NCBI RefSeq assembly: GCF_002210345.1
Contig: NZ_MWQI01000006.1
Location: 124,001-188,000, forward strand
Source of the DNA: Fibrobacter sp. UWB4
GTDB taxonomy: Bacteria > Fibrobacterota > Fibrobacteria > Fibrobacterales > Fibrobacteraceae
Direction: 5' to 3'
Length of the DNA: 64,000 nucleotides
Each line of letters opens with the position of its first letter. Position 1 is the stretch's first letter. A program made the translations under genes and the position numbers. A model generated the notes under the pieces. The model saw only the letters and a list, made by a program, of their open reading frames with translations. It searched no databases and was not told where the DNA came from. Positions 3-51,976 of this stretch are shown here, piece by piece.

Positions 3-158
3 CATGGGACGCGCTATTATGATTTTGTGGGGTATGATACTCGTTGGGTTGTCTATGCCGATGGCTCCGAAGTCATTTTCGTAGATTCTCGCAATATCGA
101 CGCCTACGCCTACTATTATTACTACGATAACCCGGACTATTACGATTATTACTATTGA
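3..158 (+). CDS. C-terminal fragment of an unidentified protein with a Tyr-rich tail
   Basis: An open frame enters from the left edge and stops at a TGA at 156-158. It encodes about 51 residues, beginning HGTRYYDF and ending in a tail made almost only of Tyr, Asp and Asn (YYYYYDNPDYYDYYY). The upstream part is outside the window, so family and length are unknown. The middle part (WVVYADGSEVIFVDSRN) has a beta-strand-like pattern. I cannot name a function; it could be an exported or surface protein, but this is only a guess from composition. Confidence 0.55.
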   Translation, partial: HGTRYYDFVGYDTRWVVYADGSEVIFVDSRNIDAYAYYYYYDNPDYYDYYY

Positions 159-32849: not shown

Positions 32850-34268
32850 ATGGATTCTCAGACGATTGTTGCTCCGATGACGCCTGCGGGCGTGAGTGCC
32901 GTTGCCGCCATCCGCGTGAGTGGCTCGAAGGTGCGCGAAGTGGTGCGCCTCTTGTTCGGCGAATCGGCGTTCAAGAATTTGAAGCCTCGCGAAGCAAAGC
33001 TTGCGACGGCTCGTGACTATCGTACAATGATCGGCGATGACCGTAAAACGGCGCAAGTCATCGATAGCCTCCTCTACATCTTTTTTGAAGGTCCGAATTC
33101 CTATACCGGCGAAGACGTGCTGGAACTTTACCCGCACGGGAACCCGATTATCGTCCGCGAACTCATTCAGGTTATCAAGAGCGTCGAAGGCGTACGCTTG
33201 GCAGAGCCGGGCGAATACACGCGCCGCGCTTTCTTGAACGGTCGCATGGACTTGGTGCAGGCGGAATCTGTCGCCGATGTGATCCACAGCGCTAACCGTG
33301 ACGAACTCAGGAACGCCCATCGCTTGCTCGGCGGTGCGCTCTCGAAAAAAGTCAAGACGCTTACGGAACAGGTCATGGATATCTCGGCCCGCCTCGAACT
33401 GGATGTCGATTTCTCCGAAGAAGAAGCTGACCCGGATTATGCGACTTGGGGCGTGAAAATCTCTGCGATTCGCGAAAGCGTAGAATCCATTTTGAAAAGT
33501 TTTAAGGGCAAGGCTGTCGTCAGCCGTTTGCCGCTTGCGGTTTTGTACGGCGCTCCGAATGCGGGCAAGTCGAGCCTCGTGAATGCGCTCCTCGGTGAAG
33601 ACAGAATCCTCGTGAGCAACATCCCCGGCACGACCCGCGACTTTGTCGAAGTCCGCTTGTTCCTGGACGGGGGTGAAATCCGCCTTGTCGATACCGCCGG
33701 TATCGCGGACAAGGCGACCGATGCTCTCGATGCGCTTAGCATGGAAAAGAGCAAGGAAATCCTCGCCGAAGCGGACATGAAGATTCTGGTGGTGGACGGT
33801 AGTTTAGACGAGAGGCTAGAGACGAGAGACGAAAGTTGCATGTCCTGTCATCCTGAGCGAAACGAAGTGGAGTCGAAGGATCTCCATCCGGATTTTGTCG
33901 TCATTTCAAAGAGCGACTTGGGCGCATCTCGGCAGGTCGGCGCATCTTGCCAAGGCGGAAATCTTCACATTTCCTCCAAAACAGGGGTGGGTCTTGCGGA
34001 TCTCAAACGCGCTATGAACGCCGCCCTTTTCAAGAAAACTGAAAATTCCGAAGACCTCTGGATCACAAGCGAACGCGAAAAGACTTGCCTCGAAGAGGCC
34101 CTTGCGGGCATCGACCGTGCACTTGACCTTATCCGCACGAATCCGGCGGTGGAACTTTTGGCTTTCGAAATGCAGCTGGTGCGCCGTTCGCTCCAGAGCA
34201 TAACGGGCGAAATCTCGTCCGAAGACGTTTTACAACAAATATTTGCGGGGTTCTGCATTGGGAAATAG
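32850..34268 (+). CDS. mnmE: tRNA modification GTPase MnmE with an embedded repeat
   Basis: With MnmG it builds 5-carboxymethylaminomethyl-uridine at the tRNA wobble position. The N-terminal folate-binding domain has TIVAPMTPAGVSAVAAIRVSG and GPNSYTGEDVLELYPHG. The G domain has G1 GAPNAGKSS, G2 GTTRD, G3 DTAG and G4 SKSD. The C-terminus is the conserved FCIGK with the essential Cys. Length is 472 aa, slightly longer than E. coli (454). The extra residues lie between G3 and G4, where a dispersed repeat is translated. The G4 motif reads ISKSD, not NKxD, so Asn to Ser is worth noting. Its 3' end overlaps the next gene. Confidence 0.95.
   Translation: MDSQTIVAPMTPAGVSAVAAIRVSGSKVREVVRLLFGESAFKNLKPREAKLATARDYRTMIGDDRKTAQVIDSLLYIFFEGPNSYTGEDVLELYPHGNPIIVRELIQVIKSVEGVRLAEPGEYTRRAFLNGRMDLVQAESVADVIHSANRDELRNAHRLLGGALSKKVKTLTEQVMDISARLELDVDFSEEEADPDYATWGVKISAIRESVESILKSFKGKAVVSRLPLAVLYGAPNAGKSSLVNALLGEDRILVSNIPGTTRDFVEVRLFLDGGEIRLVDTAGIADKATDALDALSMEKSKEILAEADMKILVVDGSLDERLETRDESCMSCHPERNEVESKDLHPDFVVISKSDLGASRQVGASCQGGNLHISSKTGVGLADLKRAMNAALFKKTENSEDLWITSEREKTCLEEALAGIDRALDLIRTNPAVELLAFEMQLVRRSLQSITGEISSEDVLQQIFAGFCIGK
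33802..33892 (+). repeat. Dispersed repeat translated inside the MnmE G domain
   Basis: About 90 bp made of GACGAGAGGCTAGAGACGAG followed by GTCATCCTGAGCGAAACGAA and the GGAGTCGAAGGATCTCC end. It is read as LDERLETRDESCMSCHPERN, then EVESKDLHP. The second part is the classic GTCATCCTGAGCG intergenic repeat. No frame or fold element is broken: the next residues are the DFVVISKSD strand of the G domain. Confidence 0.75.
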
Positions 34269-37524: not shown

Positions 37525-37553
37525 TTTTTTAGAAAATATCTAAATTGTCTAAC

Positions 37554-39023
37554 ATGAAAAAACTTTTCGCTAGAATTGCTATGAGCTGCGCGCTTGTCCC
37601 GGCACTTTTGACGGGGACGTCTAGGGCCGCAGTAAACTTGCCCGTGCATAAGGAAGTCCTTGATAACGGGCTTACCGTACTTTTGTACCCGAACAAGCAG
37701 GCTCCGACAGTGAGCTTCCGCCTGTTTTACGTGACCGGCTCCGTCCACGAAGTTCCCGGCAAGTCTGGACTTGCGCATATTCTGGAACATGAACTCTTCA
37801 AGGGCACAAAGAAGGTCGGCATCTCCGATAGCGTTGCCGATGTCAGGTTCATGGCAACCCAGGATTCCTTGCAGGCTTTGATCCGCTCGGCAAGACTTGC
37901 TGACGATACCGCCCGCGTGAAAACGCTGACTGTAGAACACGATTCCGTGCTGAATGAGCACCGCAAGATTTTCATCAAGGATGAACTGTGGGGCGCCTAC
38001 CAGGCTGCTGGCGGAACGGGTCTCAACGCCTTTACGAGCGACTTGGTCACGGCTTACACCGTAACGCTTCCCAAGAATAAAACGGAACTCTTTATGTGGC
38101 TAGAATCGGACCGCATGCAGAACGCCGTGTTGCGCGAGTTCTATTCGGAACGCTCTGTTGTCCGTGAAGAACGCCGTATGCGCTACGATGACCGCCCGAC
38201 GGGCCGCTTTTACGAAACGCTGAATTCCATGATTTACGAAGCGTTCCCGTACCGTGTGCCGACCATCGGCTGGCCAAGCGATATCGAAAACCTGACACGC
38301 GAACAGGCCGAAGAGCATTACCGCAAGTATTACAAACCGCGCAATGCAATTCTCGTGATGGCAGGCGATTTGGACACGCTTGAAACGATGAAGCTTGTCA
38401 AGAAGTATTTTGCACCGATCCCGGCCGGCGAAGCATTCCCTCCGCTTACCGTGCGTGACCCCGAACAGGCTGGCGAAAAGCGTTTGACTGTCAAGCGCAA
38501 GGATGCCCCGAATCTTTACACGCTCGTCTTCAAGACTCCCGCTGTGGGCGACAGCACCCTCTACGCACTTGACATTGCCGAAGGCGTGTTGAACGGACGT
38601 TCCGGCCGCCTCTACAAGCGCCTTGTCGAAGAAGAAAAAATCGCCGTCGGCGTGAGCGCAAGCAACAGCCCGAACAAGTACATCTCCGAGTTTTCTGTCC
38701 GCGTGAATCTGCGCCCCGATGCCAATCGCGAGAAGGTCGAAAAAATCGTCTGGGAAGAACTTGAAAAGTTGAAATCGCAGCAGGTCAGCGAACGCGAATT
38801 CCAGAAAGTCAAGAACCGCGCTTATGCAGGACTCGTCCGTAGCTTGACCGATATGGAAAATGTCGCGACCATGCTCGGCTGGTACGAAGTCTATGGCGAT
38901 TACCGCATCTTCCTCAACTGGGCTGATAATTTGGACAAGGTAAATGTCGCTGACGTGCAGAACGTCGCAAAGAAAACATTTGTCCGCGAAAAGTCCATTG
39001 CCGGATTCCTCGTGAAAGAATAA
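37554..39023 (+). CDS. M16 family zinc peptidase (insulinase/PqqL-like), exported
   Basis: The 489-aa product has an N-terminal signal (KKLFARIAMSCALVPALLTG...SRA). The inverted zinc motif HxxEH is HILEH at residues 75-79, and the third ligand Glu is probably in MWLESDRMQNAVL. A second M16 lobe follows (about residues 260-480). ATG 37554 is preferred over TTG 37545. Such enzymes degrade peptides in the periplasm or at the surface. It stands alone between terminators. Confidence 0.88.
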   Translation: MKKLFARIAMSCALVPALLTGTSRAAVNLPVHKEVLDNGLTVLLYPNKQAPTVSFRLFYVTGSVHEVPGKSGLAHILEHELFKGTKKVGISDSVADVRFMATQDSLQALIRSARLADDTARVKTLTVEHDSVLNEHRKIFIKDELWGAYQAAGGTGLNAFTSDLVTAYTVTLPKNKTELFMWLESDRMQNAVLREFYSERSVVREERRMRYDDRPTGRFYETLNSMIYEAFPYRVPTIGWPSDIENLTREQAEEHYRKYYKPRNAILVMAGDLDTLETMKLVKKYFAPIPAGEAFPPLTVRDPEQAGEKRLTVKRKDAPNLYTLVFKTPAVGDSTLYALDIAEGVLNGRSGRLYKRLVEEEKIAVGVSASNSPNKYISEFSVRVNLRPDANREKVEKIVWEELEKLKSQQVSEREFQKVKNRAYAGLVRSLTDMENVATMLGWYEVYGDYRIFLNWADNLDKVNVADVQNVAKKTFVREKSIAGFLVKE

Positions 39024-39053: not shown

Positions 39054-39074
39054 GTATTCTCATACTCTCTTCGA

Positions 39075-39166
39075 AACATGACTGCTGCGGATATCAAATG
39101 CGAGTCCACAAGTGACCTCTCGCTTGATACCCTTGCATGTCATTCCCGGCTTGACCGGGAATCTCC
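39075..39166. repeat. Composite dispersed repeat ending at the Rpn stop codon
   Basis: GACTGCTGCGGATATC, a variable middle, then CTTGCATGTCATTCCCGG, a short loop and CCGGGAATCTCC. The same composite (GACTGCTGCGGTTATC ... CTTGCATGTCATTCCCGC) occurs at 55131-55215. It abuts the stop codon of the minus-strand nuclease gene at 39167. Confidence 0.7.
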
Positions 39167-40069
39167 TTACAAAGCTTCGATTTCCTCTTTGGTGAGACCG
39201 AATGTATCAGCAATGATATCTATTGAAACACCTTTGCTTTTTTGCAATTTTGCTTTTTCTTTCAACACTTTCTCATCGTGTTTTTTGAACGCATCTGAAT
39301 CGTGCTGTTCAATGTAGTCCAGCACTACTTCGTTATCCCATCTGGCGTTCTTCATCATAAGATACTCCTCAAGTTTGTCTCCCTTCAAATTAGATATTTG
39401 AGAGACCGAAGTCAAGTGCTTGAATTTTTTGTTTTGGAGAGGAGGAGGGAGTTCTTTCAGTAAACTTGAGTATCTAAGTGCGAATAACCATTGGTTTTCG
39501 TTTTGTTTTAAGTCTATTTCTCTATAAATCTTTGGAATTTCAATGATGGTGAAGTTGTAACTGTCCATCATTATTTCGCCTGTCTTAAGGTCGCAAATGG
39601 AGCTTCGGTGAATAATGCGATCATCCTCAAACAGTCTATGTTGAGCGATTGCCATGATGTAAGTCGGCTTGACCTCGTATTTCCATCCGGGATAGCCTTG
39701 CGATACGACCATCTGTCCTGCGTAAAAAGCGAGTCTTTTCATAAAGTTTGTGAAAGGACGAATTTGAACTTCAATTTCAATGAGTTTTCCGGAATCGTCG
39801 GTGCAGTGCAAATCAAAAAATGTAGTCTTTGATTCCTTACTGCCAGTCGCGTTTTGCTCCGAACCACGTCTGCGGACGTCTGTAATAGGGTGGGGAAGCT
39901 GTGGCCCTAAAATATCGTTTAATAGGTTGATGAGGTTTGTTTTAGAATCTGGTTTGTCCGGGTCAAAAGCCTGCTTGAAAGCAGGATCAATTAGAAGGTC
40001 TGTAAACGGGCTTGTTTCGCCTGGTTTGATGAAATATTCAGACAAGGAATCTGGATTGTTTTGTTCCAT
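39167..40069 (-). CDS. Rpn-family PD-(D/E)XK nuclease/transposase-like protein
   Basis: The 300-aa protein begins with the family-type TDLLIDPAFKQAFDPDKPDS and LLNDIL. The nuclease core has FFDLHCTDDSGKLIEIEVQI, with the Asp and the E-x-Q of PD-(D/E)XK enzymes. RLAFYAGQMVVSQGYPGWKY and YIMAI follow, as in proteins annotated Rpn or PDDEXK_2 transposase. The C-terminal helices (about 240-300) end in FGLTKEEIEAL, like a targeting region. Rpn proteins promote recA-independent recombination in E. coli. Here it sits at the edge of the CRISPR-Cas block; full length, so possibly active. Confidence 0.85.
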   Translation of the reverse strand: MEQNNPDSLSEYFIKPGETSPFTDLLIDPAFKQAFDPDKPDSKTNLINLLNDILGPQLPHPITDVRRRGSEQNATGSKESKTTFFDLHCTDDSGKLIEIEVQIRPFTNFMKRLAFYAGQMVVSQGYPGWKYEVKPTYIMAIAQHRLFEDDRIIHRSSICDLKTGEIMMDSYNFTIIEIPKIYREIDLKQNENQWLFALRYSSLLKELPPPLQNKKFKHLTSVSQISNLKGDKLEEYLMMKNARWDNEVVLDYIEQHDSDAFKKHDEKVLKEKAKLQKSKGVSIDIIADTFGLTKEEIEAL

Positions 40070-40082
40070 ATTAAACGCCTTT

Positions 40083-40334
40083 TCGCGACGATCCCTTGAT
40101 TTTTGAAAATGTATCGTAGGGACCTATCGCGATGAATTTGCAACGCATTGCAAAAATATGCAGTGAACGTCGTGTTGATACAAGCAGCAAATGCTGCGCC
40201 GATTCATCGAAATGTTCGTCCGTCTCCTATACGGACGTGGTGCCCTACGTTGATTCAGACTTTATCTGAGTTCGGCCGGGAAGCTCTTTCCCAGGTACCC
40301 TGCGACGTCCATTTTTGATAAATGTCGTCACGAC
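40083..40334. ncRNA. Candidate structured RNA or multi-hairpin DNA element
   Basis: Seven stem-loops lie in series in 250 bp without a gene: TCGCGA...TCCCT with AGGGA...TCGCGA (40083-40132); TTTGCA/TGCAAA (40137-40154); GCAGC/GCTGC with loop AAAT (40184-40197); CGTCCGT/ACGGACG (40217-40237); TCAGA/TCTGA (40255-40269); GGGAA/TTCCC (40278-40292); GACG..CATTT with AAATG..CGTC (40304-40329). GTCGTG (40169) can also pair with CACGAC (40329) to enclose most of them. It matches no RNA class I know. The strand is open. Confidence 0.4.
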
Positions 40335-40490
40335 CGTCAAGCAGAGAGTTTAACTTGCCTACACGTATGCGGATTAGTTACTCATAAATAATATACACAA
40401 ATGTGTACTAAAATGCAAGAGAAAAAAATTTTTTTCAAATAAATTTCAAAATGTCATCTTCTGACAGTCTAGTATGTTATATTGTAAAGT
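40335..40490 (+). promoter_or_regulatory. Promoter/operator region of the cas operon
   Basis: The rest of the gap before cas3 is very AT-rich. TACACA AA TGTGTA (40394-40407) is a perfect inverted repeat and could bind a dimeric regulator. TTATAT near 40477 is a possible -10 element close to the start. No clear Shine-Dalgarno precedes the cas3 ATG. Confidence 0.45.
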
Positions 40491-48898: not shown

Positions 48899-51800
48899 GT
48901 TTTCTCCGCGTAAGCGGAGGTGTTTCCCTTACGACGGGTGAACTTTCCGATGTTTATGAGTTTTCTCCGCGTAAGCGGAGGTGTTTCTATTATTTGACTG
49001 GTGCCGATGTTAATGAGCAGGTTTTCTCCGCGTAAGCGGAGGTGTTTCTCTGTATTGCGCTTTCTTGTTGGAAATCCAACCGTTTTCTCCGCGTAAGCGG
49101 AGGTGTTTCTTGCTGAGCGCTGAAAGGTTACTATCCAAGCCCGTTTTCTCCGCGTAAGCGGAGGTGTTTCCCGCCTTTTACCATCCTTGATATAGTCGGG
49201 ATCGTTTTCTCCGCGTAAGCGGAGGTGTTTCTGTAGTCAAATCCTACGTAAATATCAAGTTGGCGTTTTCTCCGCGTAAGCGGAGGTGTTTCCATTCGGG
49301 TTAGCGTTATCCAGCTTGTTTTCGCGTTTTCTCCGCGTAAGCGGAGGTGTTTCTGGACTTGTCAGCGTGTCCGTCGAACACGTCGGGTTTTCTCCGCGTA
49401 AGCGGAGGTGTTTCTATACAATCTTTCCACCTTCAGAAGCAACACCGGTTTTCTCCGCGTAAGCGGAGGTGTTTCTATAGGTTCGGTACTTATTCATTTC
49501 CGAGCCTAGTTTTCTCCGCGTAAGCGGAGGTGTTTCTAATTTACAATCCTGATAGTAATACTTCATTTTGTTTTCTCCGCGTAAGCGGAGGTGTTTCCAA
49601 CGGACATCATAGAGCACCCCCGCGAAATTGGTTTTCTCCGCGTAAGCGGAGGTGTTTCTTCCCGCTAAATAGCTTATCGAAAAAAGAAGAGGTTTTCTCC
49701 GCGTAAGCGGAGGTGTTTCTCAATCACGCTTTTCACGACCATCGCAGAAGATGTTTTCTCCGCGTAAGCGGAGGTGTTTCCTCCTGGGTCCTGGACTTTG
49801 AACCCCAACCAAAGTTTTCTCCGCGTAAGCGGAGGTGTTTCTCGCCAAAGTATCTTATAGACTTCTTGGTGTCTGTTTTCTCCGCGTAAGCGGAGGTGTT
49901 TCTTCAAGTGATTCTAGCCCATTTCGTGGAAAGTAGTTTTCTCCGCGTAAGCGGAGGTGTTTCCATCTTGGCGTCTACATAGCCATGCTCAATTCTGTTT
50001 TCTCCGCGTAAGCGGAGGTGTTTCCATCTTCTGCACGTCGGCGGTGATTTCGTCGAGGTTTTCTCCGCGTAAGCGGAGGTGTTTCCTTTGCGCCCGGGAT
50101 TTCGGTCTGCGTGGCGTCGTTTTCTCCGCGTAAGCGGAGGTGTTTCTCATGGTGAGGAGGGCGATTTCACCGAAGGTTCGTTTTCTCCGCGTAAGCGGAG
50201 GTGTTTCCTCTTTCCTTTTTTCCATGTTTAATTTTATTGCGTTTTCTCCGCGTAAGCGGAGGTGTTTCTTGGCTTCCAAAGTTTTTGAAAGGGCTTGGTT
50301 TGTTTTCTCCGCGTAAGCGGAGGTGTTTCTCCACGCCAAGCCTGAGACTTTGCAGCGTCAAGGTTTTCTCCGCGTAAGCGGAGGTGTTTCATGGTCAAGA
50401 CAATGGAATTAGCGAATGGACAGGTTTTCTCCGCGTAAGCGGAGGTGTTTCCTTTTCACGGTCTATCAAAGCGGCATAGACGGTGTTTTCTCCGCGTAAG
50501 CGGAGGTGTTTCTGACTTTATTATGATTGCTCAGTTGGAGGATTAGTTTTCTCCGCGTAAGCGGAGGTGTTTCTGACTCTGTCAAGGTTCAACCCGATTC
50601 TTTGTGGTTTTCTCCGCGTAAGCGGAGGTGTTTCCTGGTGTTTCGCGACGGACACAACCGGGTTTACGTTTTCTCCGCGTAAGCGGAGGTGTTTCTTATG
50701 GATCCAGTATTCGGTGCTGCTGTCATTGGTTTTCTCCGCGTAAGCGGAGGTGTTTCTGGCATATTATACACTTTTTTGACGCGCTGACGGTTTTCTCCGC
50801 GTAAGCGGAGGTGTTTTCGGGTTAACTTGTTCAAGATTCACGCCAGCCTTGTTTTCTCCGCGTAAGCGGAGGTGTTTCTTGTTCGGTGATGAGCTTGGTT
50901 CTTTTTTGCTGGTTTTCTCCGCGTAAGCGGAGGTGTTTCTATTCAGCCAGAGCCTGCTGTGTGGAAATATAAGTTTTCTCCGCGTAAGCGGAGGTGTTTC
51001 TCCATTAAATACTTCACATGAAGTAGGCTATCAGTTTTCTCCGCGTAAGCGGAGGTGTTTCTTTCGATTCCGAAGAAGTCCGTGAGCTACATCGGTTTTC
51101 TCCGCGTAAGCGGAGGTGTTTCCAAAAAAACTAAGATTGTACATGAACGTATTGAGTTTTCTCCGCGTAAGCGGAGGTGTTTCCAAGCACCGCAAGACCG
51201 AAACGCTGGAACTATGGTTTTCTCCGCGTAAGCGGAGGTGTTTCTGCTCTGCCTTCGCCTGCTAGGAAAAATTCTCCGTTTTCTCCGCGTAAGCGGAGGT
51301 GTTTCTCAAGCGTCTTGGTGGTCATATACTCCATCTTGGTTTTCTCCGCGCAAGCGGAGGTGTTTCTAGAGGAGTTAGCAGGAGATGGAGTTTGAGCAAG
51401 TTTTCTCCGCGCAAGCGGAGGTGTTTCACAAGAGGCCGCCGCCGCAGGCGCTTCAATGGAGTTTTCTCCGCGCAAGCGGAGGTGTTTCCGGTAAAGGCAT
51501 TTTTCCGCTTTCGATCGACGCGTTTTCTCCGCGTAAGCGGAGGTGTTTCCAAATTTTCCAAACTTCTCTGCATATACGAGCGGTTTTCTCCGCGTAAGCG
51601 GAGGTGTTTCTAACCCCTGTCAATCGACCATAGATAGTCTTAAGTTTTCTCCGCGTAAGCGGAGGTGTTTCCATTCACCTGCAATCACCTGAGTCTTCAG
51701 CGCCGTTTTCTCCGCGTAAGCGGAGGTGTTTCTGCAGCTGCTCAATCTGAACTTTTACGCGCTCAGTTTTCTCCGCGCAAGCGGAGGTGTTTCCGACCAG

Positions 51801-51976
51801 TAAACTTCTTAATAACTTCTTTGCCTGTTTTCTCCGCGCAAGCGGAGGTGTTTCTCCGTCAACGACGGTGTAGGGGTGTTTCTTGTCGTTTTCTCCGCGC
51901 AAGCGGAGGTGTTTCTCGAGAAAAAAGAAGTCGAAGAGGTGAAAGACGGTTTTCTCCGCGTAAGCGGAGGTGTTTC
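48899..51976 (+). CRISPR. Type I-E CRISPR array, 51 repeats and 50 spacers
   Basis: The 28-nt repeat starts GTTTTC, has the stem CTCCGC/GCGGAG with a GTAA loop, and ends GGTGTTTC. Repeats recur exactly every 61 bp from 48899 to 51949 with no exception, so every spacer is 33 nt (32 if the first base is counted with the repeat). Six repeats (51339, 51400, 51461, 51766, 51827, 51888) have loop GCAA instead of GTAA. The repeat at 50790 ends in T rather than C. The base after the repeat is T for 30, C for 18, A for 2 and G for 0 of the 50 spacers. No duplicated spacer is evident by eye. The Cas6e cut should fall at the 3' base of the hairpin. Confidence 0.98.

Follow-up and report, generated by a model that had tools for sequence, protein, structure and literature searches.

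The 5' leader of an rpn nuclease gene in Fibrobacter sp. UWB4 probably holds a cis-acting RNA that is specific to this lineage and serves as a common regulatory module before toxin and anti-phage nuclease genes in the Fibrobacter family. The leader lies on the minus strand of a 64,000-nucleotide (nt) stretch of contig NZ_MWQI01000006.1 (positions 124,001 to 188,000; hereafter the window), in the gap between rpn and cas3, which diverge from starts at 40069 (minus) and 40491 (plus), respectively. The RNA has a conserved fold, is read from one strand, sits close to a promoter, precedes genes of many unrelated toxin families and ends sharply, as a module, at GUAGAGCACC. A first-pass annotation made from the sequence had drawn attention to positions 40083-40334 as a hairpin-rich, gene-free stretch, and this was borne out: inverted repeats are dense across the gap, and both strands fold better than dinucleotide-shuffled sequences (z=-5.3 for plus, z=-4.15 for minus), none of 200 shuffles being as good. 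The G+C content of the gap (0.46-0.47) does exceed that of cas3 (0.34-0.43), as had been noted, if modestly. The same annotation was right in proposing a structured non-coding RNA, for which compensatory substitution is strong, but not in placing it free-standing between rpn and cas3, since it belongs to the minus-strand 5' leader of the rpn mRNA. The limits given were too short at the 5' end, where the promoter and the first conserved hairpin occupy 40358-40418, and the RNA, running on the minus strand from the promoter (about 40418-40390) to the rpn start, is larger than the 165-250 nt suggested.

The family fold comprises a 5' hairpin and a multi-branched domain closed by CUCUGC:GUAGAG, and on the minus strand the real matches share a common layout, namely a TATATT box, a small hairpin, AACUCUCUGCUUGA, two or three hairpins, UCAACGUAGAGCACC and then the gene. 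The sequence itself is most conserved in TCTGC and CGTAGaGC. The initial consensus, from 11 non-identical members, contained 29 pairs, of which 13 show double changes. In the alignment of 84 distinct members, 92.7% of the cells are paired, as against 76.5% after shuffling, and double changes occupy 352 cells versus 87 in shuffles, a level that none of 500 shuffles reached; the compensatory changes by which a structured RNA was to be recognised are indeed found among Fibrobacter homologues. Covariation is seen in all five helices and is destroyed when the partners are slid against each other (22-54 double-change cells). Read on the minus strand, G-U pairs take up 201 cells and A-C pairs 46, and the RNA is therefore assigned to that strand. 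A long-range GTCGTG/CACGAC helix (40169-40174 with 40330-40335), earlier proposed to close most of the hairpins, finds no support in homologues and was rejected because it competes with the covarying helices P2 and P3. Departures from the common architecture also occur. The leader of L012 (G054:C13:1510-1598) lacks P3-P5, keeps P1, P2 and GUAGGGC, and stands before a Gp49-like gene that is probably frameshifted. Nested hairpins form a large insert in P1 (CACCGAGAAAUUGACGCCGUUGGCGUC...GUUUCAAGCAAGCUUGAAAC) that is common to L052, L053, L084, L090, L099, L103, L113, L116, L118 and L120, and looks like a repeat inserted and tolerated in the P1 loop.

By blastn, the gap sequence is unique within its own genome; over the 111 genomes of the family 28 were matched, the true matches being confined to 40273-40400 of the query, and short matches at 40088-40114, 40137-40175 and 40233-40252 (L015-L028) were dropped as chance matches inside coding genes. 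A covariance model (R1), made after the 11-member consensus and with the long leader class outside its training, recovered about 100 members in 50 of the 111 genomes of Fibrobacteraceae, long class included, and a retrained model (R2) returned the same 50 genomes, from three genera, the family tally coming to about 110 occurrences; as the model searches score only the top candidates of a first pass, these member counts are lower bounds. Neither R1 over other genomes of the phylum nor R2 over other genomes of the class gave a match, and viral contigs and phages gave none either. An exact two-part pattern, run over one genome per bacterial or archaeal species, matched 20 times, always in Fibrobacter. 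In keeping with the earlier impression that the RNA resembled no familiar class, Rfam release 15 had no match to the window at the gathering threshold, and a relaxed threshold returned nothing meaningful for the window and 14 related loci. No prior description appeared in the literature searched; a 2017 list of 224 candidate RNAs lay outside that search and may hold one. Upstream of the core, a sigma-70-like promoter (TTGnnn-15..19-TANNNT) is present at 63 of 90 loci, compared with 9.0 in shuffles, and the promoter-bearing loci have TATATT in 57 cases and a 17-bp spacer in 48. The Gp49/HigB-like modules L065, L069, L071 and L074 have a promoter-like sequence of their own, TTGACA-17-TATATT, directly after GTAGAGC and overlapping the palindrome TGTCAAAAATGACA; the leader therefore lies upstream of a second promoter there.

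Ninety members have a readable downstream region, and in 87 of these a toxin or nuclease gene, from at least six unrelated families, follows directly. The genes comprise 57 Rpn, 10 DUF1016/YhcG nucleases, 7 GNAT-toxin modules, 6 Gp49/HigB-like, 4 Ntox50 and 3 PIN; two phosphoesterases and one member without a gene make up the rest. Further members lie upstream of ORF6N, SocA_Panacea and Schlafen AlbA_2 genes. The GNAT-toxin modules, which we take to be toxins of the AtaT/TacT type, carry a small partner gene with MATSSITHNFV; their label derives from a motif and from weak matches to N-acetyltransferase structures, and that of the PIN genes from one Pfam match and its two relatives. The Rpn proteins are anti-phage toxin-antitoxin systems (PMC10327210). 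The leader sits 5' of its gene on the same strand, and in the main gene clusters the median distance to the downstream start is 8 to about 190 nt. In 290 of 530 pairs of members, homology breaks off between -15 and +5 relative to the end of the core, at GUAGAGCACC, and since it usually stops there the RNA is a module common to unrelated genes. Module exchange at the leader edge can be seen between L063/L064 (PIN) and L065/L069 (Gp49-like), which are almost the same in leader and upstream DNA, carry different toxin genes and diverge right after GTAGAGCTC.

The pairings of the longer leaders suggest a two-state translational switch. In these leaders GUAGAGCACC can instead pair with GGUGUUCUGC, or a variant of it, lying 45-150 nt downstream; of 48 non-redundant loci, 22 have this alternative partner at p<0.05 (Fisher 4e-15). 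Set against the family form GUAGAGCACC:GGUGUUCUGC, the window pairing shows compensatory change, both sides having changed together (GUAGGGCACC with GGUCCCUAC). At 11 of 19 loci the ribosome-binding site is predicted within an anti-Shine-Dalgarno:Shine-Dalgarno helix (CUCCUGUUU:AAACAGGAG, UUCCGUUUG:CAAACGGAG; Fisher 7e-10). Enforcing P2 frees the Shine-Dalgarno sequence at 9 of 20 loci and occludes it at none (p=5e-4); left to itself, the RNA favours the alternative state by 7.7 kcal/mol. On such a model GUAGAGCACC would choose between the core closing helix (with CUCUGC) and the downstream mimic GGUGUUCUGC, and in the second state the anti-Shine-Dalgarno strand would pair with the ribosome-binding site and leave the toxin off by default, two steps which these pairings support, short of proof. 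A signal, whether a metabolite, a protein or an infection-related RNA, may then stabilise the core helix, which would free the ribosome-binding site and turn toxin translation on.

Several points weigh against a regulatory role of this kind. Regulation by the leader is predicted from sequence and computation. In the UWB4 genome only 2 of 10 rpn genes carry the leader, which is therefore not required for rpn. The effect over the wider start region (-20 to +3) is not significant (p=0.33), the Shine-Dalgarno sequence in the window is not clearly sequestered (p=0.73), and the R1:R2 pairing of the leaders is weakly supported (5 of 19). Moreover, about half of the non-redundant loci, and the short class, lack the switch pairing; the output mechanism is therefore not uniform, and short-class members must use another output. 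As a separate observation, in the DUF1016 members L072, L073 and L076 the start-codon region is paired with the CACC end of the core (CACCACUU..AAGUGGUG), and the Shine-Dalgarno sequence falls in the loop, a different arrangement of the output.

The same conserved core could serve quite other functions. It might act near the promoter as a processive antitermination or anti-Rho element, like phage put RNA or EAR, with the nascent transcript modifying RNA polymerase such that horizontally acquired toxin genes are read through. The closeness of the core to the promoter across the family, its presence before unrelated acquired genes, the focus of conservation on two short strands and the lack of an intrinsic terminator in the window leader would all fit, and put RNA and EAR are likewise compact, conserved and promoter-proximal. 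However, we consider this unlikely: it would not lead one to expect a downstream mimic of the closing helix, nor the helices that sequester the Shine-Dalgarno sequence, which point to translation and not to RNA polymerase, and most units are single genes with little to gain from long-range read-through. The first-pass annotation had also entertained a folded DNA site or a lost mobile element, and a DNA-level recombination or insertion site resembling integron attC and carrying toxin cassettes would account for a cargo of toxins and small nucleases like that of integrons, for the sharp module edges at GTAGAGCACC, for the tandem units L118, L149 and L154 and for the patchy distribution. Such a site is nevertheless very improbable, as G-U exceeds A-C 4:1 on one strand, as expected for RNA, a promoter with a near-constant spacer lies ahead of the family, the element is upstream of the gene, and the base of the consensus is ACUNUCUGC / CGUAGAGC, with no RYYYAAC/GTTRRRY boxes.

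We give hardly any weight to a type III-like antitoxin that would bind the toxin encoded downstream, as AbiF RNA does. A structured RNA tied to an anti-phage toxin gene is found in both cases, since the RNA stands before the toxin gene in AbiF/RCd22 also (PMC12373285), but abiF RNA is specific to a single protein family, on which it acts through binding, whereas the Fibrobacter leader is common to at least six unrelated toxin folds; the locus has neither a ToxN/AbiF homologue nor a tandem repeat, the toxins come from families other than ToxN, CptN and TenpN, and the GNAT modules have their own small partner gene. A cis-acting regulatory leader is closer to riboswitches and other mRNA leaders that sense metabolites or proteins in its 5' position, its multi-branched covarying core and, for some members, a predicted alternative helix close to the ribosome-binding site. 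It differs from them in matching no Rfam class and in controlling unrelated toxin and nuclease genes, not one metabolic pathway. Rpn (YhgA-like) toxin-antitoxin genes are the main gene family behind it, although most rpn genes of the UWB4 genome lack it; the report on Rpn of E. coli describes control by an intragenic antitoxin, and its text has no mention of an untranslated region, leader or riboswitch.

The proximity of the leader to cas3 is incidental. Relatives of cas3 in other genomes are without the leader, homology ending at about 40450. The peptidase gene at 37545-39023 is kept nearly everywhere, and in L197 (G062), L198 (G089) and L199 (G034) it is followed by the 3' part or a remnant of rpn, with no leader found; the rpn locus has therefore been repeatedly gained, lost or replaced. 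It is from these two observations, and from the few rpn genes with a leader in UWB4, that the adjacency is judged incidental. No CRISPR-repeat-like stretch within three mismatches was found near the leader, nor was the P1 sequence found in CRISPR arrays of related genomes, and a CreTA module or mimicry of a CRISPR repeat by P1 was rejected, there being no repeat-like match and no conserved adjacency to cas3. Downstream of the cas genes, a CRISPR array at 48900-51976 has 51 repeats (TTTTCTCCGCGTAAGCGGAGGTGTTTC) with a 61-bp period, several of them with the same T-to-C change in the loop. Between the peptidase gene and rpn (39057-39170) lies a dispersed repeat of about 90 bp, of which 85-97% identical copies occur in many places genus-wide. 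A MnmE/TrmE-like open reading frame at 32850-34268 has an in-frame insert, ..CHPERNEVESKDLHPDF.., that resembles a dispersed repeat in translation.

Table 1. Features of the rpn leader and its gene in the window.
Feature	Position	Strand	Basis
Leader promoter, -35-like hexamer TTGCAT, 17 bp from the -10	40413..40418	minus	sequence; too weak in -35 for a generic scan
Leader promoter, -10 hexamer TATATT	40390..40395	minus	sequence; family statistics
Leader RNA core, full-length covariance-model match	40236..40379	minus	107.6 bits, E 6e-26 with R1
P1, 5' hairpin CCGCA-UACG-UGUAGG; short class with UNCG-type tetraloop	40358..40372	minus	covarying helix 1: double changes in 4/5 pairs
Conserved strand ACUCUCUGC, 5' side of closing helix P2	40341..40349	minus	TCTGC >=95% conserved; covarying helix 2
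Whole P2 5' strand CUCUGCUUGA	40337-40346	minus	
P3 hairpin	40302..40331	minus	covarying helix 4: double changes in all 5 pairs
P5 hairpin GGGAA-AGAGC-UUCCC	40278..40292	minus	helix 5: double changes in 4/4 pairs, 97.9% of cells paired
Extra hairpin UCAGA-UAAAG-UCUGA between P5 and P2, in the window member	40255..40269	minus	alignments; similar insert in L029
P2 3' side, UCAA-C(bulge)-GUAGGG	40243..40253	minus	CGTAG >=95% conserved; covariation
Putative switch strand CGUAGGGCACC = P2 3' side + CACC	40239..40249	minus	can pair with 40115-40124 instead of P2
Second-domain hairpin, stem CGUCCGU/ACGGACG (predicted)	40218..40237	minus	sequence and fold; counterparts GUCUGC..GCAGAC in other long leaders
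Second-domain predicted helix, CGAUGAAU (40202-40209) with AUUCAUCG (40130-40137)	40130..40209	minus	inverted repeat I1 and computed fold
Alternative partner of the switch strand, GGUCCCUACG	40115..40124	minus	dG -15.9 vs -8.9 in shuffles, p=0.005
Rpn (PDDEXK_2) nuclease gene, mRNA begun by the leader	39167..40069	minus	PF12784 E 9e-30; TIGR01784 E 3e-20

We propose, tentatively, that a single RNA sensor class may run a lineage-wide toxin and defence regulon, in which about ten unrelated toxin, nuclease or defence families would have acquired the same leader and one signal, perhaps made or changed during phage infection, would switch all of them on at the mRNA level. What would be new is a class of leader RNA united by the toxicity or defence role of the genes controlled, not by a pathway. 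If this is true, RNA-level control extends over the Rpn nucleases and no fewer than five further, unrelated toxin families. The known ways to keep toxic anti-phage proteins silent until they are needed are mostly protein antitoxins and DNA-binding repressors. The signal that changes the RNA would be a testable handle on such silencing, and the leader RNA could serve to mark new toxin and defence genes across Fibrobacter genomes.
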